Assembly: GCA_002840735.1 (NCBI GenBank) | Contig: PHBY01000004.1 | Location: forward strand, 1-64,000 | DNA length: 64,000 bases | Source: Chloroflexi bacterium HGW-Chloroflexi-2 | Lineage (GTDB): Bacteria; Chloroflexota; Anaerolineae; Anaerolineales; Anaerolineaceae | Direction: 5' to 3' | Shown here: piece after piece, positions 17,757-47,661 of the stretch | How positions within the stretch are numbered: the stretch's first letter is position 1 | Layout of the letters: each line of letters opens with the position of its first letter | Translations under genes and position numbers: made by a program | Notes under the pieces: generated by a model | Database searches by the model: none | The model's input: only the letters and a program-made list of their open reading frames with translations | What the model was told of the DNA's origin: nothing

Positions 17757-17768
17757 TCTTTACTCCAA

Positions 17769-27348: not shown

Positions 27349-28641
27349 TTATGGCACCAGTGCCGGAAGAGCCACATATACTTGCATCGTTCCATCAATC
27401 CCTACTCGCCTCGGTTGGGTGATTGGAACTCCACGGAAGCGAGTGCCCGTGGTCACAACGTCCATTCGCAAGTTGAAGGTTCCTGGATCTGCAAATGGAA
27501 CACGGAGTGCCTGGCCAGTAGCAGTACAGGTGCCGCCGCCATCACATCCGCCTGTCCATGAACCAATTCCGGGAATCAGGGTGAAATTCGCCTGGTGGAC
27601 GAAGGCTTCATAATGGGTTTGCCCTAATCTACCTGTGATCCAATCCTGGCTGGCGGCATCCAATGCTGCAGTAGCTTGTAGGGATGCTACCGCATCCGGT
27701 AAATGTTCTACGTGTGTCCGGCATTCCTTGAATACCATTTCGGTATCTGAGACACCATCATTGATAACTGATCCAGCTCCGGTATTGCAATTGGCGGTTT
27801 CTCCGGAATTGACTGAGCGGCAAACATCTCTTTCTTCATAAATCGGCTCATACCAGGTGAAAATCACTGGAGGAACTGTCACCCTGACCTGGATATCTGC
27901 ACCGCGTCGATTTTCAGTATCTTGTCCCACTACCAGGGGATTGTTCGGCGCAGTTTTTTGAATGACGAGGACAGGTTGTTGCATAGAAACTGTTGGATCA
28001 GGACACTCCCTTGGGGGAGGAGGTGGGGTGACAATTCCCGAGCACCCCCCTGGAATGGCCGCACAGTTTTGTGAACCATTCAAATACAACAAATACAACG
28101 AGCGGAGAGCGCCGTCATTCCAAGTCATTTGAAGCAGGGTTGTGATGAATCCCCACCCGGAGAAATAGGTCCACACATCTTGCTGACCATTGAGAACTGC
28201 TCCCCAGAATTGATCCGGGCTGGTGTACTCTGGATGTTCCGCCTGTACCTTGCTCCAATCCAGATTATCGCCGGCAACAAGCCCAAGAAAAGAGATCAGG
28301 CTGCCGTAACCATTTCCCAGTGATCCATAAGAGCCGGTCAAACCGCTTTCTTGGGGGTTCATGGCCATAAAAAATAACGTCGAGGCAGAGGGTAAGACAA
28401 CGATATTCCCGCTAGGTGTTTGATAGCGGTGATAATTTGCATCAAGATCAATAGACTGGCCAAAGGGCAGTTCAATTGACATCCAATCGGGGTGATCTGT
28501 GGTTACTCCCAGATCAATCAAATCAGGATTCAGATTTCCATCCGGCTGAAAAACTTCTGACCAGGGATCAGTGCCCTGAGCATAAACAGCAGATGGTATG
28601 AGCAAGGTCAAGACGACAATGATCAGGAAGAATCTTTTCAC
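27349..28641 (-). CDS. Large exported protein of unknown function
   Basis: The 430-residue protein has a clear signal peptide (MKRFFLIIVVLTLLIPSAVYAQ). The N-terminal half (to about 190) is mixed. A Pro-rich linker (IVTPPPPPREC) leads to a beta-rich, Cys-containing C-terminal half with GSWTGGCDGGGTCTATGQAL. It should work outside the cytoplasmic membrane. It overlaps the upstream gene by one base and belongs to operon B. No known family is seen; an outer component of the pilus or secretion apparatus is plausible. Confidence 0.55.
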   Translation of the reverse strand: MKRFFLIIVVLTLLIPSAVYAQGTDPWSEVFQPDGNLNPDLIDLGVTTDHPDWMSIELPFGQSIDLDANYHRYQTPSGNIVVLPSASTLFFMAMNPQESGLTGSYGSLGNGYGSLISFLGLVAGDNLDWSKVQAEHPEYTSPDQFWGAVLNGQQDVWTYFSGWGFITTLLQMTWNDGALRSLYLLYLNGSQNCAAIPGGCSGIVTPPPPPRECPDPTVSMQQPVLVIQKTAPNNPLVVGQDTENRRGADIQVRVTVPPVIFTWYEPIYEERDVCRSVNSGETANCNTGAGSVINDGVSDTEMVFKECRTHVEHLPDAVASLQATAALDAASQDWITGRLGQTHYEAFVHQANFTLIPGIGSWTGGCDGGGTCTATGQALRVPFADPGTFNLRMDVVTTGTRFRGVPITQPRRVGIDGTMQVYVALPALVP

Positions 28642-29201
28642 TACTTCTTTCCTTCTTCTACAGTTGTGGTGGGGGTTTTTCCCCGAGCGAGAATGGCATT
28701 GATTTCTTCTTCCATCAGGAAACGATCAAACTTCCAACCACTTTCTGTTTTCGCGAGAACAACATATGCTGTATCCTGGGTTTTATTGCTACCCGGTAAG
28801 GGAGAAGATAGCGTGATGGTCATCTGCCAGACTTGCTCGGAACCATTGTCTGCTACTTTTTCTACTGCCTGAGAGGCAGCTGTGACCACAGATTTGGCAT
28901 CCACGTATTTTTCCCACATACGGTCTGCGCCGGTCGAAAACAGCTCGCATCCAGCGGGAGTGCTTACCTCGCAGATACGCTCAAGCCAGGCTTCTTTTCC
29001 TTCCTGATAGTTCACCTGGAAGACCTGGTCGATGGCATTGACCGCTGCAGTAGACCCCAGACTGTCTTCGTTGGTTGCTGCTGCTGAACTCTGCTCCGTA
29101 CGAAGTGGCCAGTTTTCGATCACCAGGATACCGACAGCAATGACAACTGCCAGGATGACGGCAATGATCAGATTGCGCTTTGAGACTGGAATTTCTTTCA
29201 A
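28641..29201 (-). CDS. Membrane-anchored protein, first gene of operon B
   Basis: The 186-residue protein has one N-terminal membrane helix (residues 10-27). Its outside domain (about 50-170) ends with VWQMTITLSSPLPG and DTAYVVLAKTESGWKFDRFL, which resembles the NTF2-like layout of TcpC/VirB8 conjugation proteins. That similarity is by eye and is not proven. The start is a TTG with AAGGAGAA at good distance. It opens operon B, 186 bases downstream of the -10. Confidence 0.5.
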   Translation of the reverse strand: MKEIPVSKRNLIIAVILAVVIAVGILVIENWPLRTEQSSAAATNEDSLGSTAAVNAIDQVFQVNYQEGKEAWLERICEVSTPAGCELFSTGADRMWEKYVDAKSVVTAASQAVEKVADNGSEQVWQMTITLSSPLPGSNKTQDTAYVVLAKTESGWKFDRFLMEEEINAILARGKTPTTTVEEGKK

Positions 29202-29387
29202 TTTTTTCTCCTTTTCCGGTTAACGGGTTTGAAAGTTAGTTAAAACAAAAGCGACCATTCAGATCTCAACACCTATTTACACGCACTCAAGTTGCGTAGA
29301 CAGGGAAGAAGCTGATGGTCGCTCCAAGGATTCTTTGGAACAGCTGATGATTATCAGCGACCGAACAGATATTTGGTTGTGACTCTA
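29202..29387 (-). promoter_or_regulatory. Structured leader of Tad operon B with attenuator-like segments
   Basis: Three minus-strand segments can pair in two exclusive ways: GGTCGCT (29,362-29,356), AGCGACCATCAG (29,323-29,312) and CTGAATGGTCGCT (29,262-29,250). Pairing of the second and third gives a 12-bp stem directly followed by TTTGTTTT, a terminator-like end. Pairing of the first and second would prevent it. Other small hairpins lie at 29,343-29,358, 29,325-29,339 and 29,281-29,297. The terminator loop is long (about 48 bases), which lowers certainty. Confidence 0.45.
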
Positions 29388-29424
29388 ATCATAGCAATAA
29401 GAAAGCACCTATCCTAGGGGGACA
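29388..29424 (-). promoter_or_regulatory. Promoter of Tad operon B with conserved 15-bp box
   Basis: TATCCTAGGGGGACA (29,410-29,424, plus strand) is identical to the box before operon A. Again it lies 16 bases from the minus-strand -10 (TATGAT, 29,393-29,388). Similarity extends into the spacer (ATAGCAA, GAAA). Two promoters with the same box and geometry strongly suggest common control by one activator. Confidence 0.7.
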
Positions 29425-29459
29425 TATTTGACTAAATTAGCAAAAATGCGGAAATTAAC

Positions 29460-29488
29460 TTGACAAAGAAATACTAGAGTATTACATT
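29460..29488 (+). promoter_or_regulatory. Promoter for the RHH regulator
   Basis: TTGACA (29,460-29,465) and TACATT (29,483-29,488) are separated by 17 bases, about 31 bases before the start of the RHH gene. It is divergent from the operon B promoter, with 35 bases between the two elements. A regulator made here could therefore influence both. Confidence 0.55.
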
Positions 29489-29519
29489 ATAAATAACCTA
29501 ACCGATAAGGAAAACGAGC

Positions 29520-29774
29520 ATGCCGAAAACAAATTCTGCGAGTAAACCAGTACGATCTTTTCGAATAAGCCCAGAAGGCGTGAGTCAATTAAGAGCGATG
29601 GCAAGCGTTATGGGACGGAGTGAAAGCGATGTGATTGAGGTTGCTCTAGATCGAATGTATCGCGAGGAGATTCGTTATAACCGGGTCCTACGAGATGGTG
29701 CCCGACCAGAAGATAAGTATCAGACAGATAAAGAGAATGAAGGAGAAAATGAAATTCATCGTAGTGATTCTTAA
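29520..29774 (+). CDS. Ribbon-helix-helix (Arc/CopG-like) DNA-binding protein
   Basis: The 84-residue protein has VRSFRISPEGVSQLRAMAS, then GRSESDVIEVALDRMYRE: one beta strand and two helices, the RHH fold (residues 10-50). A charged tail follows. RHH dimers bind short operators. The gene is divergent from operon B, so a role as regulator of that operon is a fair guess. It overlaps the start of the following small membrane-protein gene. Confidence 0.65.
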   Translation: MPKTNSASKPVRSFRISPEGVSQLRAMASVMGRSESDVIEVALDRMYREEIRYNRVLRDGARPEDKYQTDKENEGENEIHRSDS

Positions 29775-30213
29775 GTTGATTGGATGGGTTGTCAAAACTG
29801 CTGTCATCCTGGCGATTTGCTCCAGCATTTTATTCGTTGCCTACAAGGGAAACCAGCCTATGCAGGTTCCTGAAGCTCCGAAGGGGATGACTTACTTTGA
29901 ATTCGTTGCTGACCGGATAGATGCAGCTAAGACAGTAGAACCTTCCCGATGCGGGTGGGGCATGATGTTATCTTTAGCCACTTTAGGCCCAATTTATTCA
30001 TTTGTTTATACTGAAGTTGGCATCCACCCGGATGGAGCTCTTGCGCATGGCACCGCCCCAGATCCAGATATCCCTAAGGATGTCGCAAATGCTAAGTGGT
30101 ATGAAGTACCTGGAATCTGGTGGAATACAGTTGAAAATCTATCCTGGACGATGGTGGGGAAGCCGGCAATGTATGGATGTAAGTTTAGGCCAGTTCAAGC
30201 TGTAAAATATTGA
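29749..30213 (+). CDS. Small membrane-anchored protein of unknown function
   Basis: The 154-residue protein starts at ATG 29,749 after GAAGGAGAAA; upstream in-frame starts would sit deep in the RHH gene. A hydrophobic anchor (residues 2-32) is followed by a soluble part with two Cys, one in PSRCGWGMM and one in MYGCKF. Family unknown. The overlap with the RHH gene suggests one transcript. Confidence 0.5.
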   Translation: MKFIVVILKLIGWVVKTAVILAICSSILFVAYKGNQPMQVPEAPKGMTYFEFVADRIDAAKTVEPSRCGWGMMLSLATLGPIYSFVYTEVGIHPDGALAHGTAPDPDIPKDVANAKWYEVPGIWWNTVENLSWTMVGKPAMYGCKFRPVQAVKY

Positions 30214-30430
30214 GACGTGCGTGTTGTTAATAAAAGAAGTTTGGGATATACCTCAAATCTTATAAAGATATATTCCTGTTAAAAGTATCTCTGCTTGGTA
30301 CATGAATTGTACAAGCGCACAAGAAAAGACAACTCAACTGCAAGGCTGATGTCAAATTGGGATTCAAAATTAACTGCAGATACAAGAAAATTTTAAATAC
30401 AAATCTGTCATAAATAATCCAAATTCATGG

Positions 30431-30458
30431 TTGATTTTATGACAAAACGCGCTATAAT
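30431..30458 (+). promoter_or_regulatory. Promoter of the XRE - ImmA - PIN operon
   Basis: TTGATT (30,431-30,436) and a perfect TATAAT (30,453-30,458) are 16 bases apart, 28 bases before the XRE start. GAAGGAAGAGG supplies the ribosome site. XRE proteins of such loci normally bind near this position and repress their own operon. The preceding 217 bases (30,214-30,430) hold nothing else I recognise. Confidence 0.55.
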
Positions 30459-30485
30459 CATGTTATAAGAAGGAAGAGGATAATT

Positions 30486-30830
30486 ATGAACGAAACTATC
30501 GGGAATAAGATAAAGGGATTGCGGGAAATGGCCGGCTTGAATCAGGTTCAAATTGCACATTTCTTAAATGTCGATCAAAGCACAATATCAAAATGTGAAA
30601 AGGGTGAACGCCAATTCCAAGTGGATCAATTGGAACTATTGGGAAGTCTATTCGGGTGTGCCTTAACAGATTTAGTTAAAAGAGAATTGGAAGTAAAACC
30701 TTTACGTATCGCCTTTCGCGCAGATGCCATCGGAAACGAAGATTTGATGGCTATCGCGGATATTCACAAGCTCGCATTAAATTTAACCGAAATGCGCAAT
30801 TTACTTCAGAGGGCGGCAGTTGAAGGCTAA
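30486..30830 (+). CDS. XRE-family HTH regulator
   Basis: The 114-residue protein has a Cro/C1-type HTH at residues 5-60 (LREMAGLNQVQIAHFLNV, then DQSTISKCEKGERQF) and a short C-terminal helical region. It overlaps the following metallopeptidase gene by 11 bases. Paired XRE plus ImmA/IrrE proteins are the known switch of ICEBs1-like elements, where the peptidase cleaves the repressor, and also occur in toxin-antitoxin and defence loci. Here a PIN protein is the third member. Confidence 0.8.
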   Translation: MNETIGNKIKGLREMAGLNQVQIAHFLNVDQSTISKCEKGERQFQVDQLELLGSLFGCALTDLVKRELEVKPLRIAFRADAIGNEDLMAIADIHKLALNLTEMRNLLQRAAVEG

Positions 30831-31584
30831 AAGCGAATTAAGTTATCAAGCGAACGATTTACGAAAACGATTCGGAGAGGATTTGTTCTCTCCGATTGAT
30901 GTGTTTGCTATTCTGCAATCTCAGGAGCGATTAACTCTAGTTTTTTATCCGCTATCCGAGCACATTTCTGGTATGTGTGTACGTACCCACAGTGGAGATC
31001 AACTGGTAGCAATCAATTCCAGATTGACGCAAGGTCGGCAACGATTTACTGCCGCGCACGAGCTTTACCACTTGTTTATCCAAAAAGAAATTCAAAGTAT
31101 AGTTTGCGGGAAAGAAATTGGTGCCGGGAAGGACGAAGAGGAGAAGAACGCTGATGGATTTGCCTCATTTTTCCTGGCACCCAATGACGCTCTACGCAGT
31201 TATATTGAAAATAATTTAAAGAAGGGCAAAAATCGTCCAATCTCGTTGGAAGACATAGTGCGTATTGAGCAGTATTTCAGGATGAGCCGCCAGGCAACGC
31301 TTTACCGCTTAGTAGGGGACGGATTTATCACACTTGATTTTGCTAATACTCTAAAAAGCAATATCATCGCTTCTGCTCGTAAGTATGGATTTAATGAAAC
31401 GTTATACGTTTCCACTCCCTCCGATCAGCAATACTACACGACTGGAAGTTATATTGAATTAGCGGAACAACTCAAAGATCGCGATTTGGTTTCCAACGGT
31501 AAATACGAAGAGCTTTTGCTCGATGCGTATCGGGCTGACATCGTTTTTAACTTTGAAACCGAAAACCAGGAGACGTATGATTGA
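30820..31584 (+). CDS. ImmA/IrrE-family zinc metallopeptidase
   Basis: The 254-residue protein has the zinc site RFTAAHELYHLF, with H80 and H84 and the catalytic Glu between. The typical third-ligand region ADGFASFFLAPNDAL follows. Members cleave an XRE repressor or act as its regulated partner. The start is a TTG inside the last codons of the XRE gene, indicating coupling. A C-terminal extension (about 170-254) may sense a signal or contact the PIN protein, whose ATG overlaps this stop. Confidence 0.8.
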   Translation: MKAKSELSYQANDLRKRFGEDLFSPIDVFAILQSQERLTLVFYPLSEHISGMCVRTHSGDQLVAINSRLTQGRQRFTAAHELYHLFIQKEIQSIVCGKEIGAGKDEEEKNADGFASFFLAPNDALRSYIENNLKKGKNRPISLEDIVRIEQYFRMSRQATLYRLVGDGFITLDFANTLKSNIIASARKYGFNETLYVSTPSDQQYYTTGSYIELAEQLKDRDLVSNGKYEELLLDAYRADIVFNFETENQETYD

Positions 31585-32104
31585 GTCATTATTCCTGGAT
31601 ACGGACTGCCTTTCGACGTTTCTAGTTGTTGGGCAAGAAAATCTTATACTCCAGTTATATGCCGGGCGAATCGGTATCCCTCAGCAAGTTTATGCGGAAC
31701 TAAAAAAAGTGCATTTCATGAAGAACAAAGTGGATACTTTACTCAAATCAAATCGAATAATCCTCTACCAGATCGATGCCAGTACGGACTCGGGGGCTTT
31801 ATATCTTAAAATGATTACTAACCCAGACAAAGGGTATAAGATTATTGGTAGCGGGGAGGCTTCTGCAATTGTATTGGCAAAACAATATAAAGGCATCTTG
31901 GGAAGTAATAATATGCGAGATATTTTGCCATATATTCGATTGTTTGACTTGAAGCACCGCACTAGTGCTGAAATCATGGTGGAAGCTTTTGAACAGCATT
32001 TGATCAGCGAAGGACAGGGAAATGTGATCTGGCGGGATATGCTTCAGAGGAACCGAAAACTTCCCGCTGATACCTTTAGTGAATTCCTGGCAACCCAAAA
32101 TTAG
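31577..32104 (+). CDS. PIN-domain protein, probable nuclease
   Basis: The 175-residue protein starts at ATG 31,577 within the stop region of the peptidase gene (ATGATTGAG). It shows the PIN order: FLDTDCLSTFLVV with N-terminal Asp, IPQQVYAEL with Glu, KIIGSGEASAIVLAK with Glu, then LGSNNMRDI with the last Asp. The fold is a metal-dependent ribonuclease, here probably the effector of the three-gene operon. It carries a longer C-terminal tail than simple VapC toxins. Confidence 0.7.
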   Translation: MIESLFLDTDCLSTFLVVGQENLILQLYAGRIGIPQQVYAELKKVHFMKNKVDTLLKSNRIILYQIDASTDSGALYLKMITNPDKGYKIIGSGEASAIVLAKQYKGILGSNNMRDILPYIRLFDLKHRTSAEIMVEAFEQHLISEGQGNVIWRDMLQRNRKLPADTFSEFLATQN

Positions 32105-32289
32105 TCGGGGTAAATTGTTCGAAAAGTTGTTGAGTTATCTCCAACCACTAAAAAAAATTCTCAATCTAATTTCTCATCTCGCTAACATTGCAATAAATTC
32201 GTAAGAGCACTTAGGTGGTATTATTTTGGAAAGATTCAACTATCCACAACAGCAGATCGTCACTTGCATATGATGAGGTCTAAAAACAC

Positions 32290-35200
32290 ATGAAATCATT
32301 ATTAAAACCTCCGATGCAAAAAGGGAAAGAACCGCCTTTCTTTGATATGGGAGCTATACCGTTTCAAGAGTTATGTCGGGATTTGTTAGCTGTGCAGGGC
32401 GAATTTACTGATTGCAGAATTTATGGTGACAATGGAGAAGGGCAATTCGGCATTGATATTCGTTGCGACCGGAAGACTGGAATTCTGGAAGTTGCACAAT
32501 CCAAATGTTATAAAAATTTCCCGCCAGCAGAAATAGTTGAGGTTTCAAATAAATTTTTCGAAAGCATTCAATTTTGGCAAAAAGAGGGAGTGAAAAAGTT
32601 TATCCTAATAGTAGCATGTAGGATAACATCCCAAAAAGCCAACACTCAAATTTCAATTGAAAGACAAAGATTCAAAGATGCGGGTATTGATTATGAATTA
32701 TGGGATGCAATCCGCATTCGTGACATTCTCCGAGATAATTCCAAATTAATTTATACACATATTGAGAATAGTCAATTTTGGTCTGAACAAATATGTGGTC
32801 AAGTAACTGCATCTCCATTTACTAATCAGCCGGGCTTTGGCATAAATTTATCATTAGCCACTGATTTTAACAACTTATTAACACTTCTAAATTCAAAAGC
32901 ATCAGAGGAACTTGAAAAGAATAGAATATTATGGCGGGAAGGGGATAAGAAAAAGGTTTTTGAATGGATAAAACAGAAAAAAACTAATATTGATGAGTGG
33001 AAAGCAATAGATGTAAAAACAAAGGCGGGAATTATTCGATTAGAAGCAATTACATATATTGATTTTTATGAAGATTTTGATAAAGCTGAAAACCTTCTTC
33101 AAGCAGCAAAAGAACTCGACCCAGAAGGACTTGATAGGAAATATTGGGCAATTCTTGCTTTACATCGGTCGGGTCTGGAGGACAGTTTAGAGACGCTTAG
33201 CGATGCGGATGATATTGATTCAATATGCGCTCGAGTTTCTCTCTTGCTTCAGAAAAGTAGCATTTATGAAGCAAAAAGCTTGCTTGAACAATTACAGGTA
33301 GAGACCAGTAATAATGCTGAAGTTTTCCGTCTGCAGGCATTGTTACATTTGGAGTTCCGAGATTTACAAAAAGCTAGAGAAACCATCAACCAAGCAAAAC
33401 AAATCGCAAGCAATTGGGAAAGCATTCAGATTGCCGACGCGGTAATTTCTTATTTTTCTGCGCTCTCGCCAGCAGTCTTTTCTAGGACAACGACATTGTG
33501 GCCAGAACCAATTGAACTAGACCTTATAAAGTCTTCTAACGAAGCCATTCATGCGCTTGATTATGCGGCAGAAATATTCCGAAAAGTTTATCAGAATGAG
33601 TATTCAGGTGCTTCCTACAGACTTTCCTTGAAGCTATGGTATGCTGCTTGTTTAGCATGCAATTTTAGAAGACAGAAAGAAGCAGAAAATTTTTTCAGTA
33701 GTCTGCTGACCGACTTTCCTACTGATCATCGAATAATCTCTTGGGTATTCTATAGAAGATATCCATTTCAGTTACAGAAAAGCCATCAAGAGTTAAAAAA
33801 GAAACGTGAGAAAGGTTTGGCCACTGCAGCAGACATTATTAGCAGTGCTATGCTAAATATTCAACTTAAGAAAGTACGAAATACTCTGTATCTACTCGAG
33901 AGCAATAAAAAGTTATTTATTACAGAAGGACTCGAGCAATTATGGGATTTTTGGCATATTCAAACACTCATCGCACAAAAAAAGATGAGTGATGCCAACA
34001 GAGAATTTCAGGAATCAAGTTATCGCGAACAGTTAAAACCTATTCAATATTTATTGCTTAGTCAAGAAAGCAACGAAGGTGAAGGTTTAGATAAATTTAT
34101 TGGCTTATTAATAAAATCATATGAGGAACAGAAAGATGCATTGGCGCTAATGGAAATGTGCCAGTACTACGCAGCAAAACAAAAATGGCAAGAGATCAGT
34201 TCATATCCGGACCGATTGGTCTCTGAAATCCAAACAGAAAAAGCATTTAAGATTGGTGTTGCAACTCTTTATAACCAAGGAATGTACCAGGAATGTAAAC
34301 TTTATATCGAGCGAAATAAATCTTTATGTTTTGATAACAACCTTCCAAGTGATCTGATATTAATTTACATACAAAGCAAGGCACTATCTGGTGAATTTCC
34401 TGAAGCCCTGTCGGATTTACGTCAAATAGCCGAGAGCAACCCAACCAAACAAAATCTCCTATTGCTCCGTGACTTCTATATTCGTAAAGGTGATAAATTG
34501 GGTTTAAGGGATGTTGCAATTCTGATAAAGAAGCAGCCGGATTTTAAGGCTGACGAACTTATCCAAATTGCCAATTCTCTGCTTTGGGCATCTCCCGAGC
34601 TCGCAATCGAGTTTTTTGATTTAGCACCAGTTGACCAATTAAGTTCACAGCATGTAGTCGAGAAAATGATGCTTGGTTTCTCGTTAGGTCTTGATTCTGA
34701 AATGAAAGATATCCACAAACTGATTCCTAATATTATGAGTGCGGAAGGCGCACTAATAAGGGTAACAACATTCGAAGAGACAATTGACATAATAAAACAG
34801 AGGAATCAGCAGTGGAATGAATTAGTCTATAAATACAACTCCGGAGAAATACCTATCCATTTTCTTTCCATGAATGCCAGGTCCAATTTATTCACGCTTT
34901 ACAATATGGCATTTAGTAACAATAATTTAGCTTCTCCCAAGCAAAAATTCCCACTATTTATCCGCTTTGGCGGGAGACCATCCCTTGTCGATTTTAAAGA
35001 GCCTGATGAACCAATATTGGATCATTTATCCCTTGATGTAACGAGCCTTTTATTATTGGATCACTTTTCTCTTCTTGATGTCTTTGAGGAAATTGGAAAA
35101 CCAATCAATCTACCCGGTGAAACTGTCCTTGCTCTAGTAAATATGAAACAGTCACTTGAGCAGTATCAACCGGAAATTGTTCAGGCATCAAAACTATTGC

Positions 35201-38200
35201 TAGAGCTTTTAAATGTAAACAAGATAAGAAAAATTGAGATTAATTCAAATCAATTTACTGGTGATTTCGATATAGACATCATATTAAATTTGATCGATAG
35301 TCTTGGAAACCTTCAAGGTTTTGTGGTTGGATTTGCTTCACAAAGAAACATTTGGGATAGCCTTGAGCACAGAACTAGTAATTTAACATTCATTACCATC
35401 GCTGACATTGTTGAAAATATTCGTGCAGATGCGATCATTTCTGAAGTTGAAAGAATTACAGCTATTGATCGATTGGGAACAGAGGGGCTTGTTAAAACGG
35501 ATAATGGAGTACCTAAAGGGTCAAACTTATTTTTTGTCGCTAATACTATTCAATTGCTTGCACAAACTGATATCTTGAACCAGGTTTGTTCGGCGTATAC
35601 TGTTTGGGCAGAAAGTAGTGAAACATTCAACATACAAGGTTCTGTGAGTGAAGAGCGAAATCGTTCTATGTATGCGAATCGGCTCCAAAATCTTATTGAT
35701 AGAATTAGTAAAGGTATTGAAGAGAGAAAGTATTCATTTCTTCCTCAACAGAAGCTAGGTAATGAAATCAAATCTACTGCTAGAGAAGATTCATTATTAC
35801 ACAACCTCTCAGAAAATTTCATCGCAGGACAAAGTAGTAACTTTCTACCTGCTATTGATGATCTTTTTATTCAGAGGGAACTTCATTATCATGGCGTTCA
35901 TGCTATAGGTATTTATGAATTAGTTTGGTCGGCGTTTAAACAAGGGTTGATTGAAGAAGCTAGATACTATGATCTCCTTATAGAATTTCGAAAAGCTGAC
36001 TTACGATATATCCCAATTTCAAGTGCTGAGATAGTGTTCCATATCAAGACGGCATCGATTGAGAATAAAGCGGTTCAGGAAAATTCCAATCTTAGGATTC
36101 TCAAAGAATATGTATCGTCCTCTCTTGTAACAGGTAGGAAGATACAAATACCAAGGCTGCCCATTGACTCTGTAGAGGCAATGGGAGAATTCGAATATAT
36201 CATTAATTTCGTGCACAGCATTTCCTATGCAGTAATGAAAATCTGGCAAGATAACGTGTCTGAGGAATTGAAGCAAATTCGCTCATCGTGGATTTTTGAA
36301 AATCTTTTTCTCGACATACTGACTCTATGCAATATTGTTGGATGGGAAAGGGATCACAAAGATCATGTATTCCTTGTAGCATTAAGCTTGGCAGAATTTT
36401 TCTTGAATGGTTTGCAGTTTATAAAGGATGACTCTGATAAGTCACCGCGTAAACAGTTCTATGATTGGTTTTATTATAAAATCTGTGAGCCGAGATTTGC
36501 TGCCAACTCAGGATTGCTCGAAAGAACGGCCGAATTAATCAAGGATTCTTTATCTTCCCAAATTTCCAGTAATGCCAATTCGGAGTTCGATCCATACATA
36601 CGCCTTTTTAGTCAAAGGCTTTACCAGGATCTTCCGGATCCATTAAAAACAATAATTAATAGGGACCCAAAATTTTTAGAGCAAATTGGGATTGAGATCA
36701 TCTCTGTGATTGATGTGGCTGGCCTAATGTTTCCAGCCGCAAACTTTTGGGACAATTTAGCCAAGACTTTAGAAGGAGAATCCATCGCAATTGAGGCTGT
36801 TAATCCCAAAGCAGAAGTCTTATTTTCACCAAATACATCTAAGAAGAAGTTAAGCGCAACTTTCATCAATCCCAATAATGGGGAAAAAATCAACATAGAA
36901 TCTGGAGATTTTGTATTTATTCTTAATGCAAATAAACAATTTTGGCTTGAAAGTAACTATGATTATTTCTGTGAATGGTCAGCAAGCGAGCTAGAAGCCA
37001 CTATCTCAAAGATTTGTTTACTGAAAAGTCCAGCAGAACGGATGGAAGAACTAAACGAATTACGAAAATCAAGTATAGGAAATTATTATCATAGTCTCAA
37101 AGAAAAACTCTTATCCACTAAAACTCTCGATTTTGCGCGTCTATTACCGCCATCTCGACAAGGTTTACACCAATTCTTCGGTTTTGTTTCAAGTGATAAT
37201 GCCATTGCCAATATAGAAGAACAAATAAATTTGTCTGCGGGAAATTTAATCACTAGACTTGGTTTATTTACTGCGACATCAAGAATATCGGCTTTTCCAA
37301 TTGGAATCCCTACCACTTTACTTGATGAAATCCAAAAACTATCATTTGATGAACGACAGAAATTCCTCTCAGGACTTTCCGATGTTCTTATTACCCCTAT
37401 CAGCCGGTTGCAATATCTTCGATTGATATGCCAATTCGGTGATGAAGAACAAACCGCAATGTTAGTAACTTCTTTCTTTACAGAAGAAATGAACATAGAA
37501 ATATCTGCTTTTCTTCTTTTATTAGGATGGATTTCAGACGAACTTGATGATCTTCCGGGGGGCAACCAGTTTACAGCAGATGAAAAACTTTTATTTTCAT
37601 GGGGTCATACCAACGAACTGTTTACTATTTTCAAACAAGTTGGAGTTCCATTTGATTGGCTTATAAGTGTTTTGAAAGAAAGAAAACCACAATTACCTTT
37701 TAGATATATTTTTGCTTCAGCACCCCTCGAATGGAATGATGTGATTCATCCAAGTAGATTGGATGTATTACCATTCAAAATTCTTGGGTTAAATTACGCG
37801 CTTGGAGATAATAAGACGCTTAGTAAAGAAGAACGAGATAAATTGCTAAATGAGGTCTTTCCATGGAAAGAAAATAACATTTTGCCGGCTGTGGATTTGT
37901 TAGAACAAAGGGAATCATATACAAATATCTTGCATTCTTTCTTTGGTAAGGAGATATCAAATTCACTTTTATCCTTGACTTCTGGTGAAGAAGAGAGAAT
38001 TACAGCATTATCAAATTCATCATTAAAAAATCTCGCTTCTGAAGCTATAGATTGGTTGTCTTCACCAGATTCCGCTATAGCAGGCTTCCAGTTCCTTTTT
38101 GGTTTATACCATACACAACTTCTTCCTAAAGACCTCTTATTTGATTTTGAGAAAAAAATCTCCGGTTTTAATTTTGTAGGATTGATCAATTTGAACCCGA

Positions 38201-38586
38201 TGATTGTCATTCTTGGTCTTTACTTCTCAACATGCCAGGCTAAGCAACTATCGGATAATGCTAAGAACCACTTGATTGAAGAATTACTAGGACTTGCGGA
38301 GGCTTGTTCGAAGTTGTATCCCGGACAGAGTAGCATACCGGATGATAATGTTCTAGAGGTTGAATTATCCGCATTGCTTTTTGAATCAGCTGTCCAACTT
38401 TCAAAATCTATGACAGAGAATAAAGTAATTGATGAATTTGAACGCCTTATGATGGGAATTCTATCTCGGTGGAGTGAAACAAAACCGATAGCCCTTCGAT
38501 TACTAACTCGTCTATACTCGGATATTCCCATCCCTATCTCACATACTCTTGGTAAAGTACTCCTTGAGATTCGTTTATTAAGATAA
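32290..38586 (+). CDS. Giant Mrr-like nuclease, TPR and PIN-like fusion protein (2098 residues)
   Basis: The N-terminal domain (about 20-165) looks like an Mrr-type PD-(D/E)xK endonuclease. GQFGIDIRCD supplies D56, and LEVAQSKCYKN supplies Q70-x-K72, the QxK variant. From about 200 to 900 are helical repeats of TPR character (for example AENLLQAAKELDPEG). At about 915-1250 lie segments matching PIN-like proteins of the TPR-PIN type: LSLDVTSLLLLDHFSLLDVF, then IYELVWSAFKQGLIEEARYY and ADLRYIPISSAEI. The last 800 residues are helical and unassigned. The gene is visibly AT-richer than the pilus genes, which suggests transfer. It probably acts in defence, but this is not proven. Confidence 0.65.
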   Translation: MKSLLKPPMQKGKEPPFFDMGAIPFQELCRDLLAVQGEFTDCRIYGDNGEGQFGIDIRCDRKTGILEVAQSKCYKNFPPAEIVEVSNKFFESIQFWQKEGVKKFILIVACRITSQKANTQISIERQRFKDAGIDYELWDAIRIRDILRDNSKLIYTHIENSQFWSEQICGQVTASPFTNQPGFGINLSLATDFNNLLTLLNSKASEELEKNRILWREGDKKKVFEWIKQKKTNIDEWKAIDVKTKAGIIRLEAITYIDFYEDFDKAENLLQAAKELDPEGLDRKYWAILALHRSGLEDSLETLSDADDIDSICARVSLLLQKSSIYEAKSLLEQLQVETSNNAEVFRLQALLHLEFRDLQKARETINQAKQIASNWESIQIADAVISYFSALSPAVFSRTTTLWPEPIELDLIKSSNEAIHALDYAAEIFRKVYQNEYSGASYRLSLKLWYAACLACNFRRQKEAENFFSSLLTDFPTDHRIISWVFYRRYPFQLQKSHQELKKKREKGLATAADIISSAMLNIQLKKVRNTLYLLESNKKLFITEGLEQLWDFWHIQTLIAQKKMSDANREFQESSYREQLKPIQYLLLSQESNEGEGLDKFIGLLIKSYEEQKDALALMEMCQYYAAKQKWQEISSYPDRLVSEIQTEKAFKIGVATLYNQGMYQECKLYIERNKSLCFDNNLPSDLILIYIQSKALSGEFPEALSDLRQIAESNPTKQNLLLLRDFYIRKGDKLGLRDVAILIKKQPDFKADELIQIANSLLWASPELAIEFFDLAPVDQLSSQHVVEKMMLGFSLGLDSEMKDIHKLIPNIMSAEGALIRVTTFEETIDIIKQRNQQWNELVYKYNSGEIPIHFLSMNARSNLFTLYNMAFSNNNLASPKQKFPLFIRFGGRPSLVDFKEPDEPILDHLSLDVTSLLLLDHFSLLDVFEEIGKPINLPGETVLALVNMKQSLEQYQPEIVQASKLLLELLNVNKIRKIEINSNQFTGDFDIDIILNLIDSLGNLQGFVVGFASQRNIWDSLEHRTSNLTFITIADIVENIRADAIISEVERITAIDRLGTEGLVKTDNGVPKGSNLFFVANTIQLLAQTDILNQVCSAYTVWAESSETFNIQGSVSEERNRSMYANRLQNLIDRISKGIEERKYSFLPQQKLGNEIKSTAREDSLLHNLSENFIAGQSSNFLPAIDDLFIQRELHYHGVHAIGIYELVWSAFKQGLIEEARYYDLLIEFRKADLRYIPISSAEIVFHIKTASIENKAVQENSNLRILKEYVSSSLVTGRKIQIPRLPIDSVEAMGEFEYIINFVHSISYAVMKIWQDNVSEELKQIRSSWIFENLFLDILTLCNIVGWERDHKDHVFLVALSLAEFFLNGLQFIKDDSDKSPRKQFYDWFYYKICEPRFAANSGLLERTAELIKDSLSSQISSNANSEFDPYIRLFSQRLYQDLPDPLKTIINRDPKFLEQIGIEIISVIDVAGLMFPAANFWDNLAKTLEGESIAIEAVNPKAEVLFSPNTSKKKLSATFINPNNGEKINIESGDFVFILNANKQFWLESNYDYFCEWSASELEATISKICLLKSPAERMEELNELRKSSIGNYYHSLKEKLLSTKTLDFARLLPPSRQGLHQFFGFVSSDNAIANIEEQINLSAGNLITRLGLFTATSRISAFPIGIPTTLLDEIQKLSFDERQKFLSGLSDVLITPISRLQYLRLICQFGDEEQTAMLVTSFFTEEMNIEISAFLLLLGWISDELDDLPGGNQFTADEKLLFSWGHTNELFTIFKQVGVPFDWLISVLKERKPQLPFRYIFASAPLEWNDVIHPSRLDVLPFKILGLNYALGDNKTLSKEERDKLLNEVFPWKENNILPAVDLLEQRESYTNILHSFFGKEISNSLLSLTSGEEERITALSNSSLKNLASEAIDWLSSPDSAIAGFQFLFGLYHTQLLPKDLLFDFEKKISGFNFVGLINLNPMIVILGLYFSTCQAKQLSDNAKNHLIEELLGLAEACSKLYPGQSSIPDDNVLEVELSALLFESAVQLSKSMTENKVIDEFERLMMGILSRWSETKPIALRLLTRLYSDIPIPISHTLGKVLLEIRLLR

Positions 38587-38712
38587 TATCAATGCTTTTT
38601 TGAATTTTTTTGAAAGGTAAGGATTATTCTAGGTGAACCATCGAAAACCATAAAAATATGATAGGATAGATCACACCATTCCCCCTTAAGACTCTAGAGG
38701 AACGATGCAGAC

Positions 38713-38740
38713 AGAACGGAGTGCACTCCGTTCTATTTTT
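38713..38740 (+). terminator. Intrinsic terminator of the giant gene
   Basis: AGAACGGAGTG/CACTCCGTTCT (38,713-38,734) forms an 11-bp GC-rich stem followed on the plus strand by ATTTTT. It overlaps the last codon of the convergent minus-strand gene. It ends plus-strand transcription 127 bases after the giant gene's stop. Confidence 0.75.
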
Positions 38741-40043
38741 CATTCGCCCTTCTTTGAGAAAACCAGATGCTATCGTCCTTGCCTGCTCGCTTCCCATTTC
38801 GCAATCCGTGTAGATTTGTCAGAAATGAGTTGTAGTTTAACCCACTTAAAGCAAGGTTGATTTCTCCCTGAATAGCTCTCTGACAGTTTAAGTTGTCGCA
38901 AAATACATACAGGTTTCCATTTGAAGCTTCATAAAACTTCATCCATTTCGTTTTTCGGGATATTTGATCCTTACTCACATCCCGCTCTACTTCGACGAAT
39001 ATTACCTCGCCTATTTTTGGATCCACAGCAATAATATCTGGGATATAAGTCTCACCATTGGATAAACTAATAGCTTGTGCCCGTCCTTGAATTCTGTAAC
39101 CTTCATCTACCAGGATTTCCCCGGCCTGAATATTCAGAATGGTATGTTCCGGTGAAGAATGATGTCTTCTTAGGATGTCAAATTCATTTTCCTTGGGAAT
39201 TTTGCCTGTTAATACCTGGTATGCAACTTGACCATTACGAGTCAAATGCAGCACCGCAGGCTGATTTCCACCAGAACTGGATCCTTGCTCAACAACGCCA
39301 TTTATCTGTTCAACCAGGATTGGGACTTCATTTCCTTCCGGTGACACTAACCAATTCAAGGCTTCATCCAGGTTTTTGTTTGCAGCTGATAAGGAAAGGC
39401 GATTTGCCATCTGCTTTATGATGGATGGTCGTAAAGCAATCCCCATTTCACCCATCACAAAAATTGCCGCCGATGTTTTTTCAAAGTTCTTGGATGACTG
39501 CCAGGTTTTTACCCAATCTGGAACAGGCGTAAGGTCCCTCGATTCTTCAGTACCCGATTTTGGGGATTGAATGTCCTGGGCAACCTCATCTTTCTGGATC
39601 TGTCGAAGGGCAGCTAAGTGGGCTTCCAGTGCTGCCTTCTCTGCCTGTATATTCTTTTTCGATTCCTGTGTGGCAATGAGCTCTTGTTCCAGATCAGAAT
39701 ATTTCTGATTGAGTTCTTTCAAGCGCTGTTTTAATTCATTTATTTCCACGGGCTCAATTTTCTTCGATGCTGACCCTTGCAAAGCTCGCAGTCGAACATG
39801 AATCAGATATGCCAGGTCATCATCGCTAAACGATTCCAGTGGACGGCTCGCTTTTTCGCAGGATTCATCGTAATCCTGATCGAGAAGCCTCAAGAGTGCG
39901 ACAAGATGTTTGTGGGCATTTTCCCATAATTTCTGAGCATTGGCTTGCATTTTTTGCTCGTGCTCCTCGCTTTGCCCGATGATTTCTCTGGAGATTCGAG
40001 TAGACTGATTTCGTTGGAATTCTTCTAACGTGAGATCAACCAC
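38733..40043 (-). CDS. Coiled-coil, winged-helix and nuclease-like protein
   Basis: The 436-residue protein has a long coiled coil (about 105-155; ELKQRLKELNQKYSDLEQEL), a helical HTH-like middle (about 180-280) and a C-terminal domain with PDIIAVDPKIGEVIFVEVE. The D...ExE pattern fits PD-(D/E)xK-type nuclease folds as in replication-relaxation-like proteins. It is the last gene of the rep/par operon and overlaps the membrane-protein gene by 19 bases. It may be a DNA-processing protein of the element, possibly for transfer, but no relaxase motif is seen. Confidence 0.5.
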   Translation of the reverse strand: MVDLTLEEFQRNQSTRISREIIGQSEEHEQKMQANAQKLWENAHKHLVALLRLLDQDYDESCEKASRPLESFSDDDLAYLIHVRLRALQGSASKKIEPVEINELKQRLKELNQKYSDLEQELIATQESKKNIQAEKAALEAHLAALRQIQKDEVAQDIQSPKSGTEESRDLTPVPDWVKTWQSSKNFEKTSAAIFVMGEMGIALRPSIIKQMANRLSLSAANKNLDEALNWLVSPEGNEVPILVEQINGVVEQGSSSGGNQPAVLHLTRNGQVAYQVLTGKIPKENEFDILRRHHSSPEHTILNIQAGEILVDEGYRIQGRAQAISLSNGETYIPDIIAVDPKIGEVIFVEVERDVSKDQISRKTKWMKFYEASNGNLYVFCDNLNCQRAIQGEINLALSGLNYNSFLTNLHGLRNGKRAGKDDSIWFSQRRANEK

Positions 40044-40567
40044 TTGTTTTTCTCCAATTCCGATTTCATTTGCCGAGCATCTTCAAGTAATTGGATAGCC
40101 TGGTCCTGATTTTCTTGCTCTGGCACGCTGACCCACTGTAGAGCGCTTCGAGCAGCTTCAAGATAACTCAGCGTTGTCGAGAGCATTTGCTCATGCATCC
40201 CCATGCCAATTGGTGGCACTCGGGTTCGATCAACCTGTTGAGCGAGTTCAACAGCATGCTGGAGGGTCTGTTGGGAGGCTCTGGACTGTGAAAAGAGATC
40301 ACCTTGTTGGTCAGCAGCAATAATGTGCGCGATCTCGCCATCCAAAATGTTCAACTCAGAAATCCATGATTGTGCCGCCTTTCTGTAATCTTCCACTGCT
40401 TTGACCTCCGGCAAGAGAAGTACCGGTTTCCCCTGGTCATCCAATGGGGAAACGAACGCACCAATAATGGTAAAAAACACCGCAAGACCGAATAGTATCC
40501 AACCAAGCTTTTGTAGTTTTTCTTCAGAGATTTGGATTTCCGGTTCAGTAGGATTATTCACTGTCAT
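40025..40567 (-). CDS. Single-span membrane protein with helical domain
   Basis: The 180-residue protein has one hydrophobic segment (about 24-42; LGWILFGLAVFFTIIGAFV). A long helical outside or cytoplasmic part is rich in Gln, Ala and Glu (QTLQHAVELAQQVDRTR). No known family. It overlaps both neighbours (the SSB-like gene by 14 bases, the nuclease-like gene by 19), so it belongs to the replication operon. Confidence 0.5.
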   Translation of the reverse strand: MTVNNPTEPEIQISEEKLQKLGWILFGLAVFFTIIGAFVSPLDDQGKPVLLLPEVKAVEDYRKAAQSWISELNILDGEIAHIIAADQQGDLFSQSRASQQTLQHAVELAQQVDRTRVPPIGMGMHEQMLSTTLSYLEAARSALQWVSVPEQENQDQAIQLLEDARQMKSELEKNKWLISR

Positions 40568-40994
40568 GACCTAATTCTCCAACTTCAAGGATCTGTGTGA
40601 TGATTTCCAGATCGGTTACGGAATTTCGTTTTCCACGCTGTTTTAAATCTGCGATCACTTGTTTTCCGCGTTCATAATCAATATTGCGGATAAATTCAAC
40701 TCGTTCGGCAACGACTTCAAAAACAGGGGTCGTCGTGTTTGGCCGGTAGCGCAGTTGAATATGCCCTTCAACACCGATCCGGCTGCCTTTCTGAACATGT
40801 CCGTACACCAATTCAGCCAGGGTGCCATAAACCAGCACTCGTAATCCCTTCACCGGTTTTGATTCTGGGCTGCCAGCGATCATCAGGTACAGGCGAACAT
40901 AAGGGATAGGGTCCTGATTCTGGGGACGCAAATAATCAAAATAGATATCCCCGGTGATGTCGCCACGTTGCCACGTAAGATTTCCTTGCGCCAT
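40554..40994 (-). CDS. SSB-like OB-fold protein
   Basis: The 146-residue protein starts at ATG 40,994 after AAGGAGACAAC. The pattern VRLYLMIAGSPE, LRVLVYGTLAELVYGHVQ, KGSRIGVEGHIQLRYR and PVFEVVAERVEFIRNI is that of single-strand DNA-binding proteins of the SSB family. The acidic C-terminal tip is lacking; it ends GELGHDSE. It lies directly after the rep gene and probably coats DNA during replication or transfer of the element. A broken SSB-like gene lies beyond the tRNA scar. Confidence 0.7.
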   Translation of the reverse strand: MAQGNLTWQRGDITGDIYFDYLRPQNQDPIPYVRLYLMIAGSPESKPVKGLRVLVYGTLAELVYGHVQKGSRIGVEGHIQLRYRPNTTTPVFEVVAERVEFIRNIDYERGKQVIADLKQRGKRNSVTDLEIITQILEVGELGHDSE

Positions 40995-41057
40995 AATTTG
41001 TTGTCTCCTTATTATGAATGTTTGTTTGAATTCGGTAGTCCACAAAGTGCGTCTGGC

Positions 41058-43244
41058 TTAATTACTCATCCAACCTGTTTCCTCCTCGATATCCAGAACC
41101 AATCCCAATGCATCCGCTAAAAGCCGGATACGATCCCTTTTCACTTCTGCAAAAAGCCGTCGCCAATTTTGGTCGGTTGGGGAACAAAAGGTGAACGACT
41201 GCTCAATCAGGCGGGCAAGATTTCGCGGCTGTAATGCAGCCAGGCGTTCACTCGCTCCGCCGGCTCCGATTCTGGGGTTCTCTTTTAGCTTGGCGATGGC
41301 CAGACTGTACGGATTCTGGATGTTGGGTTGGGAAGCGCCATGAATAATCCAAGATACAAAAGGTAAAGCATTCTTTTCCTGATCGAGTAAAGCCTGCCGA
41401 TTTTTCTTGTCTGCGCGCACCAATAATTTATCCAATGACCAATTTCCACTCGAATCAGTCACTACCGCCACCGATTGACTGGTTGGATCGTTCAGCAAAA
41501 TCGATGTATCTTGGGTAGAGGAGGTATCTTTTTCTTTTGGGGAATCTTTAAAGCTTTTGAGAATCTTTAAAAGGGTCTCAAAACAACCCTTGGCTTCCGG
41601 GTTGAGCGTCGCAAAACAATCATTGAGGATACCCTTGAGAGTCTCAGAACAATCTTTGGTTAAATCTGAGAGTCTCACGCCAGAGGCGGGCAGTCGCCAA
41701 ACAACCTTTGGTTCTGTTTTGACAGTCTCAGATCCCACTCGCTCCGCTCGGGGACGCTCCGCGCAACCATTGCCCAATAAAGTGATCCAAGAATCTAATT
41801 CATCCTGAACACCTTGACTTTCTGATTTCACAAGAAGGGACGAAACAGCCTGTTGGATGGCTTGGTGTTGTGGAGTAAGTGGATCCACCCTCTGTACCTT
41901 AAATTTCCAACTATAGCTGCCCTCAGAATTGATCCGATGATCAATACGCTCAACAAAAAGAGCTAATAGATCCTGAAGACGTTGCCGACGAGAAAATTCA
42001 TCAACGGTACGATCTCTTAATTCATCCTTATGTTTTCCTCGCTCTATCCAGGCTGGAAGCCAATTTGCCACAACGCGAGGGTTATTGATCCCTAGACGAT
42101 TTGCGATAGATTGATATCCACCTTCAATCCAGACTGCATCTCGGATCTCACCCGTTTCATCATTGAAGTAGCACAGATTGCGCAAAACCAGGATAAACAT
42201 GGCTGCATCTGCTCCGAGAACCGGTAACCAGTTTCTTAGGAAATACCATGTAACCAGGATGAAATTCCCCTGACCTAACAATCGGTCAGTAAGCTGATCC
42301 GCCAGGGTCCCAAGTTCTCCGTCGAGCCGATGACCAATCAATTCCCGGATGACATCCTGAACGGTCAGATAGTGTGGAATGGTTTTGTTGAATTCTTTTT
42401 GAGGAAGCCGCACCGGATAATGCAAGATGTCCTTCGGATTCGCGTTGATAGCCAATTGCAGAGCGGCCTGAGGGGAATCCTCGATACCATGAGCCAGTAA
42501 GAAAGTTTTCAAGTCTTCAGCATCCCCAGGTGTCAGCGGTGATTCGAATAGTTCATATTTGTTGGAGGACTTTTTGGCTCTTCCTGAGCGCTTATCTACT
42601 TCATGATCGGTGTCAATCTTTCTCGCAAACCATCCCAGACTGCTACCGGGTTGTAACAAGCGAAAGAACTGAGCCCGGCTGATCCCAGCCCATTGGCAAA
42701 TACGCTCAGCGCGAACGGCAACTTTGCAGCTCCCTTTTCGAGCCTTTCTACCGCTTGCCAGGTAATATTCCTGCCACAATGCCATGATCAAGAAAATCAT
42801 TTGTGATCCGACGTATGGCAGCCAGCGCAGGTAATATACCGGCAAGCGAACTACCCGGCTTGGCTCAATTAGGTTATTCCGGATGGAGCTGTAATGGATA
42901 TCCAACGCAATGGCATTGTCCTCAGAATCTTCTTGTTCTGGACCCTCTTCCTGAAAGAGATCATCTCCGCCATCAATTTCCTGATCACTGACGACAAAAC
43001 GAACCTTTACTTCTCTGTTCATCACCCCCATAAGGAATCGCTGTAAGGTGGTCGTTAAACGGTTTTCTAACCACTCACGGCCATACGCATTTATGCAGCC
43101 GATCACAAAGGTGTCATCTGAAAAATCCACCAGATGGGTTGGTTTCACCCAGGCGCTAAAAGTCACCCGCGACATAACCAGTTCGAGGTTAGCAATTGCC
43201 GCTTGCCAGGCTTTTTCCGGTGAAAATTCAACAACTGCATTCAT
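41058..43244 (-). CDS. Replication initiator-like protein with DnaA domain I-like N-terminus
   Basis: Residues 1-85 follow the DnaA N-terminal domain closely: KAWQAAIANLELVMSRVTFS, WVKPTHLVDF and FVIGCINAYGREWLENRL. There is no AAA+ motor after it. The rest (to 728) has winged-helix-like parts (VRAERICQWAGISRAQFFRL; YQSIANRLGINNPRVVANWL), typical of element Rep proteins. DnaA domain I recruits the helicase loader or helicase, so the protein may mimic DnaA in that step. Four 18-bp iterons lie inside its coding sequence. The gene follows ParA and its partner. Confidence 0.7.
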   Translation of the reverse strand: MNAVVEFSPEKAWQAAIANLELVMSRVTFSAWVKPTHLVDFSDDTFVIGCINAYGREWLENRLTTTLQRFLMGVMNREVKVRFVVSDQEIDGGDDLFQEEGPEQEDSEDNAIALDIHYSSIRNNLIEPSRVVRLPVYYLRWLPYVGSQMIFLIMALWQEYYLASGRKARKGSCKVAVRAERICQWAGISRAQFFRLLQPGSSLGWFARKIDTDHEVDKRSGRAKKSSNKYELFESPLTPGDAEDLKTFLLAHGIEDSPQAALQLAINANPKDILHYPVRLPQKEFNKTIPHYLTVQDVIRELIGHRLDGELGTLADQLTDRLLGQGNFILVTWYFLRNWLPVLGADAAMFILVLRNLCYFNDETGEIRDAVWIEGGYQSIANRLGINNPRVVANWLPAWIERGKHKDELRDRTVDEFSRRQRLQDLLALFVERIDHRINSEGSYSWKFKVQRVDPLTPQHQAIQQAVSSLLVKSESQGVQDELDSWITLLGNGCAERPRAERVGSETVKTEPKVVWRLPASGVRLSDLTKDCSETLKGILNDCFATLNPEAKGCFETLLKILKSFKDSPKEKDTSSTQDTSILLNDPTSQSVAVVTDSSGNWSLDKLLVRADKKNRQALLDQEKNALPFVSWIIHGASQPNIQNPYSLAIAKLKENPRIGAGGASERLAALQPRNLARLIEQSFTFCSPTDQNWRRLFAEVKRDRIRLLADALGLVLDIEEETGWMSN
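41576..41711. repeat. Four 18-bp iteron-like repeats inside the rep gene
   Basis: Copies start at 41,576 (TCTCAAAACAACCCTTGG), 41,609 (TCGCAAAACAATCATTGA), 41,642 (TCTCAGAACAATCTTTGG) and 41,694 (TCGCCAAACAACCTTTGG). The first three are spaced exactly 33 bp, three helical turns. The fourth is 52 bp further and is read in a different codon phase, so DNA rather than protein sequence is conserved. This favours binding sites for the Rep protein, that is an origin or a handcuffing control site. Confidence 0.65.
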
Positions 43245-43271
43245 AAAAGAAATCCCTATCGATAAAAAAAA

Positions 43272-44215: not shown

Positions 44216-44223
44216 CGTAACCT

Positions 44224-44994: not shown

Positions 44995-45005
44995 TTGATT
45001 TCTTC

Positions 45006-46027: not shown

Positions 46028-46032
46028 AAGTC

Positions 46033-47647: not shown

Positions 47648-47661
47648 GTTTTTCTCCTTTA

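Follow-up and report, generated by a model that had tools for sequence, protein, structure and literature searches.

A giant protein of a Chloroflexota bacterium as a probable single-chain member of the TPR-GreA/B-C-PIN conflict systems

An open reading frame (ORF) of 2098 codons lies at positions 32290 to 38586 of the forward strand in the 64,000-nucleotide stretch analysed here (the window; Chloroflexi bacterium HGW-Chloroflexi-2, contig PHBY01000004.1), and the question it raises is what a protein of this size may do. An earlier note on this DNA had read it as one protein joining an N-terminal nuclease, tetratricopeptide repeat (TPR)-like repeats and PIN-type segments, followed by 800 unassigned residues, and had suggested a large defence or surveillance system whose exact order of parts it knew from no described system. 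We propose that the giant protein probably belongs to the TPR-GreA/B-C-PIN conflict systems, as a single-protein sensor and killer in which the body would sense invasion and the N-terminal nuclease would serve as a replaceable effector. The defence role suggested by the note is thereby retained as likely.

The frame of 2098 codons is intact from the ATG at 32290 to the stop at 38586, with no internal stops. Since relatives cover most or all of its length, the ORF is a real gene and not a chance frame, and the claim of one 2098-residue protein holds. A protein search of its own 4.1 Mb genome found no second copy. The parts of the gene, all on the forward strand, are as follows.

32290..38586, forward: whole gene, 2098 residues; order of parts nuclease, TPR-like, helix-turn-helix (HTH), PIN, PIN, linker, GreAB-C-like, C-terminal part
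32347..32805, forward: predicted PD-(D/E)xK nuclease effector, residues ~20-172 (D56, Q70, K72); AlphaFold2 model, Foldseek, VIA-align and conservation
32887..34749, forward: TPR-like helical repeats, residues ~200-820; TPR models of Pfam and NCBIfam and a PDB sequence profile match weakly
34771..34977, forward: HTH_upst_double_PIN domain (PF24407), residues 828-896; Pfam 30.3 bits, cut-off 27, and 36.8 bits at the same place in the genome search
35002..35544, forward: PIN1-like half, residues ~905-1085, with D916 invariant and without the Asp pair of PIN2; homology to L016 ORF1, 18-row alignment, hhalign to PIN2
35545..36054, forward: PIN2-like half, residues ~1086-1255, with D1190 and D1191 kept; V1083, in the column of the first Asp, lies immediately ahead of this half; PF20698 in relatives L010, L016 and L080, alignment
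36700..36939, forward: putative permuted GreAB-C-like domain, residues ~1471-1550; PF24388 weak in L002 and over cut-off in a separate gene of L016 and L080, profile comparison
36610..38583, forward: C-terminal part, residues 1441-2098, of which ~1442-1800 correspond, by hhalign, to a gene that stands separately in two relatives

The system to which we compare the protein was described by Kaur et al. (2021, eLife, PMC8195603), whose relevant passage gives a constant core of TPR, GreA/B-C and PIN, 13 exchangeable effectors, with a restriction endonuclease (REase) and TIR named among those at the N-terminus, and mostly standalone genes. That passage proposes that the system acts on RNA polymerase engaged in transcribing viral DNA and that the effector forms a second line. 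In the part of a 2022 article concerned (PMC9503650), TPR-GreA/B-PIN is listed among anti-phage systems that carry sirtuins.

The N-terminal nuclease and other heads on the same body

Residues 1-180 were modelled by AlphaFold2 with a predicted local distance difference test (pLDDT) score of 81; the chain runs through a helix, three strands, helices, a strand, a helix and a strand. Foldseek returned two matches at E≤0.001, EcoT38I (4.1e-4) and Ydc2 (6.8e-4), the second being a resolvase of another fold; next in line, at 0.004-0.01, were EndoMS, Avs4 and Cap4, amid RuvC-type and other rows. With VIA-align the top match was the N-terminal nuclease of Avs4 (8dgf_B; Z 10.4, 135 residues, root-mean-square deviation 3.1). 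Twelve of 999 chains had a Z of at least 8, mostly restriction enzymes (MspJI, EcoT38I, FokI, BspD6I), together with AF1548 and one subunit of a viral RNA polymerase. LmuA, Shedu, Cap4 and Card1 gave Z 7.0-7.5, a range below 8 in which, according to the tool's own note, a match may reflect just a common arrangement, and unrelated proteins (acetyl-CoA carboxylase, RsbS and others) reached Z 5.5-5.9. D56 and K72 were present in all eight nuclease-bearing rows of the alignment (L010 and L011, which have other N-termini, were left out), and Q70 was replaced by S in the alphaproteobacterial rows. The assignment of residues ~20-172 to a PD-(D/E)xK nuclease fold with D...(E/Q)xK residues is a solid prediction of the model, and the structure check that the note had called for upheld the fold.

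A PDB sequence-profile search with residues 1-180 gave no meaningful relative (Card1 only at E=0.92), and Mrr_cat (PF04471), the family expected by the note, had no match in the giant protein at E≤0.1. Among other proteins, Mrr_cat scored 13.9 bits in L009, under the cut-off, and 23 bits (cut-off 21) in the distant nuclease relative L069. The nuclease was 39-41% identical between the window protein and six cyanobacterial rows, compared with 19-28% for core segments in the same rows.

The head varied among relatives of the body. A nuclease was found on the core, by alignment or by eye, in the window, L007-L009, L012, L014, L015, L017-L020 and L067. In L002 a TIR domain (TIR_2, 55.6 bits) stands ahead of the nuclease, in L010 a caspase replaces it (Peptidase_C14, 38 bits), and L080 has a DUF676 esterase head (22.2 bits, cut-off 20.3). 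The head of L016 shows, by eye, two hydrophobic stretches, likely a two-helix membrane head, and L011 carries an N-terminus other than the nuclease. A variable N-terminal effector (nuclease, TIR plus nuclease, caspase or DUF676) thus sits on a constant homologous core. Given these other heads on the same body, the likeliest reading of the giant protein is an uncommon representative of a class of anti-virus guards that has been described as a prediction. The caspase and DUF676 heads are not named in the passage of Kaur et al. (PMC8195603).

PIN-like halves and the GreAB-C-like part

Pfam gave three matches in total on the giant protein at E≤0.1. The TPR models were all weak (TPR_19, 18.5 bits, cut-off 25; TIGR02917, 29 bits, cut-off 312.2; PDB consensus TPR, E=0.013), and no TPR model passed its curated cut-off on the giant protein; the repeats seen by the earlier note are kept as TPR-like. 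PF24407, which is over its cut-off in the window protein, has a name implying two PIN domains downstream of the HTH. It reached 68-78 bits in L002, L009, L010, L019, L016 and L080, and 44.9 bits in L066.

Two PIN-like halves are predicted at that place. Residues 817-1337 of the window protein matched ORF1 of the Methylophaga relative L016 by BLASTP (E=1e-17, 20% identity), and in this ORF1 two stretches match PF20698, with 46.8 bits against a cut-off of 27.8. In four other relatives PF20698 remained under the cut-off (L010, 26.9; L080, 26.5; L009, 14.9; L019, 15.8 bits), and in the window protein and its own genome it had no direct match. Since Pfam names PF20698 the 'PIN domain associated with the TPR-GreAB-C-PIN system', the PIN of that system may be assigned here through homology, which agrees with the PIN-type segments placed by the note at about 915-1250. 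The profile of PIN1 also matched that of PIN2 (hhalign probability 50, E=1.6e-4, 148 columns). Seven control windows outside both halves gave probabilities of 0.1-0.4, and when the borders of PIN1 were set at 880-1050 the probability was only 12.7.

The conserved residues of the halves were read from an 18-row alignment, which leaves out L013/L081. D916 and D1191 are invariant in all 18 rows, and position 1190 holds D in 14 rows and E in the other 4. At least 80% of the rows have acidic residues at 930, 933 and 1042 of PIN1 and, within PIN2 or close to it, at 1159, 1210 and 1247. In the first-Asp column of PIN2 the residue is D in four rows (L002, L066, L080, L016), E in one, N in six, G in four, and K, S and V in one each, the V being V1083 of the window protein. 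By eye, PIN1 lacks an equivalent of the 1190/1191 pair. An active PIN site consists of an acidic set, including the first Asp, within a single domain. Because the full acidic set is found in neither half, a second nuclease activity, and with it the 'two potential nucleases' of the earlier note, is doubtful. Either each PIN is a pseudo-enzyme here or the two halves may share one site. A bolder version of the latter, to which we give little probability, is that the halves are complementary, such that D916 of PIN1 and the 1190/1191 acidic pair of PIN2 would form one composite or domain-swapped ribonuclease site; if this assembled only when the body changes shape, sensing and RNA cleavage would be one event, which would then free the N-terminal nuclease.

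The start of the 800 C-terminal residues was not blank. Two adjacent, overlapping genes encode the core in the relatives L080 (Agrobacterium) and L016 (Methylophaga), and the second of these genes carries Permuted_GreAB-C (PF24388; 31.7 bits in L080 and 39.6 bits in L016, cut-off 27). The profile of residues 1440-2098 (14 rows) matched the profile of this second gene, built of two sequences only, with an hhalign probability of 90 (E=1.4e-6, 335 columns); the match starts near the start of the second gene and covers ~1442-1800 of the window protein. When 12 windows of 110 residues were compared with the second gene, the eight ending before residue 1361 gave at most 0.5 and the four later ones gave 66 (1400-1510), 1.4, 8.0 and 0.1; the narrower window 1465-1575 alone gave 4.5. 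Because the profile matches the separate second gene of L080 and L016, the start of the C-terminal 800 residues is, as judged by profile, a GreAB-C gene module fused on, and the GreA/B-C part of the TPR-GreA/B-C-PIN system may thus be recognised through homology.

The split core genes overlap just before the GreAB-C part, at 8163-8170 in L016 and 9476-9479 in L080. In L066, which comes from the same taxonomic order as the window, a frame change is located near residue 1501; since this is further in than the split of L016 and L080, it may be a frameshift.

Distribution and genomic setting

Relatives spanning the whole gene or most of it were present on plasmids of cyanobacteria and alphaproteobacteria and in four genome contigs. 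Long relatives occur on plasmids of Allocoleopsis, Gloeocapsopsis and Nostoc, and the Leptolyngbya and alphaproteobacterial relatives have other or more distant N-termini. A long relative, L002, lies in a genome of the same phylum as the window, and a partial two-ORF relative in one of the same order. Matches were present in 13 of 72,556 plasmid records and in none of 50,697 phage records, and the viral contigs scanned had none. Of 386 cyanobacterial genomes 25 had a match, long only in G401 (the centre itself) and G672, the remainder being short and mainly in the repeat region. Matches were likewise found in 6 of 400 genomes (long only in the window's own genome and G169) and in 7 of 201 (long only in the own genome and G422). 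The distribution of the family is rare and patchy. Among 117 cyanobacterial genomes, G401 included, PF20698 gave one weak match and PF24388 none; PF24388 matched none of the control genomes either. With L002 as query, two Agrobacterium records were added, and most other matches, among the best 40 of 74 rows, were to the TIR domain only. The 14-row identity table and tree leave out L013/L081, L016, L066, L067 and L080.

L003-L006 were rejected as relatives, matching the nuclease only; PF24407 was missing in L069, L070 and L071, the proteins scanned at three of these loci (L003 was left out). L069 and L071 are proteins of ~1000 residues with a related N-terminal nuclease and HEAT-like C-terminal repeats, that is, the same effector type on a different scaffold. 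L013/L081, on a Rhizobium beringeri plasmid, is a copy of the giant gene in several pieces and is apparently decayed.

The surroundings of the giant gene contain the following features.

16911-18563, reverse: AbiEii toxin paired with AbiEi antitoxin, another conflict module within the window (PF08843, 106 bits; PF13338, 37 bits)
30486..30830, forward: XRE-type HTH protein, possible cluster repressor (HTH_3, 35.2 bits; PADLOC models RmrA, capH and PDC-M69A)
30820..31584, forward: ImmA/IrrE-type M78 metallopeptidase (HExxH), overlapping the HTH gene (PF06114, 54 bits; PADLOC capP 2.2e-22, PDC-M69B 1.3e-20)
31523..32104, forward: small protein, PIN-like by eye (PADLOC PDC-S70, 1.6e-6; no Pfam match)
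38733-40043, reverse: 436-residue protein containing a coiled coil; its C-terminus, with an EVERD motif, may by eye be PD-(D/E)xK-like, and its matches to LmuB and to phage integrase are faint
46793-47665, 50217-51086 and 51162-52064, reverse: three clustered DegV-family genes

The HTH, M78 and small PIN-like genes overlap in an operon-like manner (30486-32104, forward) and are separated from the giant gene by 185 bases; the last of them likely starts at the ATG at 31577, preceded by AGGAG, instead of at 31523. The HTH and ImmA/IrrE genes directly upstream resemble regulators of the CapH-CapP type (PADLOC capH, capP). A similar gene, fused and on the other strand, was seen only at L019 among the loci read, and the pair may be an independent module. 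The M78 parts of the window and L019 match (3e-10), and an HTH-M78-PIN neighbour common to both was rejected, as the small proteins do not match. Genes on the other strand around the cargo are of the Flp/Tad secretion type (two T2SSE and two RcpC), with an AAA_31 protein just under its cut-off that we read as CpaE-like, ParA and the AbiE pair.

The G+C content of the giant gene is 36.7%, that of its flanks 46-48%. The mobile element suggested by the earlier note is not proven: no relaxase or integrase family was found among the 40 proteins scanned with Pfam (of 96 window ORFs of at least 100 residues). The sole PHROGs integrase match was faint (38733-40043, E=6.6e-4), and no repeats of at least 18 bases bounding the cargo were found in 28500-46500. 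Promoter and terminator matches scored no higher than in shuffled sequences.

In the neighbourhood survey the note had proposed, which covered 14 loci of relatives with flanks (L007-L010, L012-L020 and L080; L011, without annotation, was not counted) and in which part of the neighbours were scanned, clear defence-type neighbours stood beside three: a type IIG restriction gene at L009, ThiF with multiubiquitin at L010, and pPIWI-RE with a C5 methyltransferase at L019. Less clear were MksE at L016 (Pfam; no PADLOC match at 1e-5) and an HsdR N-terminal domain at L080 (annotation; no PADLOC match).

Sensing, killing and alternative readings

Membership in the TPR-GreA/B-C-PIN kind is supported by PF24407 over its cut-off, by the PF20698 and GreAB-C homology and by the exchange of N-termini, as well as by the Avs4-like nuclease model, the patchy and plasmid-borne spread, and the defence-type genes beside L009, L010 and L019. 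In such a protein the constant body (TPR, HTH, PIN-like halves, GreAB-C and C-terminal part) would sense invasion. By analogy with the 2021 proposal (PMC8195603), GreAB-C may dock on the RNA polymerase transcribing foreign DNA and the PIN-like region may handle the extruded transcript. The TPR scaffold would keep the PD-(D/E)xK nuclease silent, and successful sensing would free it to cut phage or cell DNA.

Several results weigh against this assignment. The PIN and GreAB-C assignments depend on relatives: the window protein itself had no PIN family match at E≤0.1 and no direct Pfam match to a GreAB-C family, its BLASTP comparison with the second gene of L016 was blank (E=0.56), and PF24407 was missed at E≤0.1 in L012 and L020 and fell under the cut-off in L011 (19.5 bits). 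G401, which holds the relative L019, had no PF20698 or PF24388 match at E≤0.001. Against seven ordinary PIN proteins (five from the window's genome and one each from L020 and L067, one row shortened), PIN1 and PIN2 gave nothing by hhalign (probability 0.2 and 0.1), a weak comparison with a small profile and no positive control; the PIN reading therefore rests on the relatives that bear PF20698. A PDB sequence-profile search with residues 815-1640 found no meaningful relative, and the model of this region, built from five sequences, failed (pLDDT 45.5) and was set aside for fold assignment, so that neither a PIN nor a GreAB-C fold was seen. To these are added the incomplete acidic set of both PIN halves, the lack of matches in phage records, and 9 of the 14 surveyed loci without a recognised defence gene beyond toxin-antitoxin-like genes (for example RelE in L008). 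Furthermore, the PIN halves (905-1255) precede GreAB-C (1471-1550), and the passage in PMC8195603 has a C-terminal PIN; the order effector, TPR, GreAB-C, PIN is given there for one archetype (the 2021 archetype is WP_017307658.1) and not as a requirement.

The giant protein resembles the described system in having a core of TPR-like, GreA/B-C and PIN parts on which N-terminal effectors, REase and TIR among them, are exchanged, and differs from the systems of that passage in having an HTH and two PIN-like halves before a permuted GreAB-C on a single chain (PMC8195603). A described kind therefore exists, where the earlier note knew of none with this order of parts. PF24388 and PF24407 probably belong to the same system, as judged by their names; Pfam holds both, so such parts are already known to curators, and their source paper was not found in the literature search. 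The passages concerned of PMC10907252 and PMC7159879 contain nothing on the core. Like the nuclease defence protein Avs4 of the STAND type (PDB 8dgf), the giant protein has an N-terminal PD-(D/E)xK nuclease (Z 10.4); unlike Avs, it has no NTPase family, the STAND NTPase included, among its three Pfam matches. DS-3 of DefensePredictor, as the passage in PMC13092281 describes it, is likewise a single-protein system, whose PIN domain is divided over the chain and required for its defence activity; the giant protein is far larger, with its PIN-like halves side by side, and the likeness is one of description only.

Avs also suggests a different mode of sensing for a protein of the same family. The TPR scaffold would recognise a phage protein directly, with PIN and GreAB-C being structural or only RNA-binding. 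TPR arrays are frequent binders of peptides, the nuclease is closest to that of Avs4 by VIA-align, and 13 of the 18 rows have a non-acidic residue in the first-Asp column of PIN2. We nevertheless consider this mode unlikely, given that the invariance of D916 and D1191 argues for a chemical role and that two relatives retain the GreAB-C part in a gene of its own next to the first.

The plasmid-borne spread raises the alternative that the system shields a plasmid or element against competing DNA instead of acting in phage defence. Relatives occur in plasmid and not in phage records, and L019 and L016 adjoin pPIWI-RE and MksE, kinds that are linked to plasmid exclusion. Caspase, TIR and esterase effectors would suit cell suicide better than the cutting of chosen DNA, and plasmid protection appears quite improbable. 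Decay of the gene, or a housekeeping function without a conflict role, is very improbable: the first Asp of PIN2 is lost, the gene is single-copy and no close relative was found (19-28% core identity), but the nuclease residues and the frame are intact, the spread is patchy and the effectors are exchanged.

If the giant protein is a TPR-GreA/B-C-PIN member, as we think probable, it bears on a class of giant one-protein guards that was predicted from sequence in 2021 (PMC8195603, in the passage concerned) and for which no bench test was found in the literature, most subscription journals being outside the search. The window would provide a complete member on one chain, its nuclease head intact, next to two relatives that split the body into adjacent genes. 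Residues D56/K72, D916 and D1190/D1191, together with the module border at ~1440, would offer handles for a direct test of the RNA polymerase idea.

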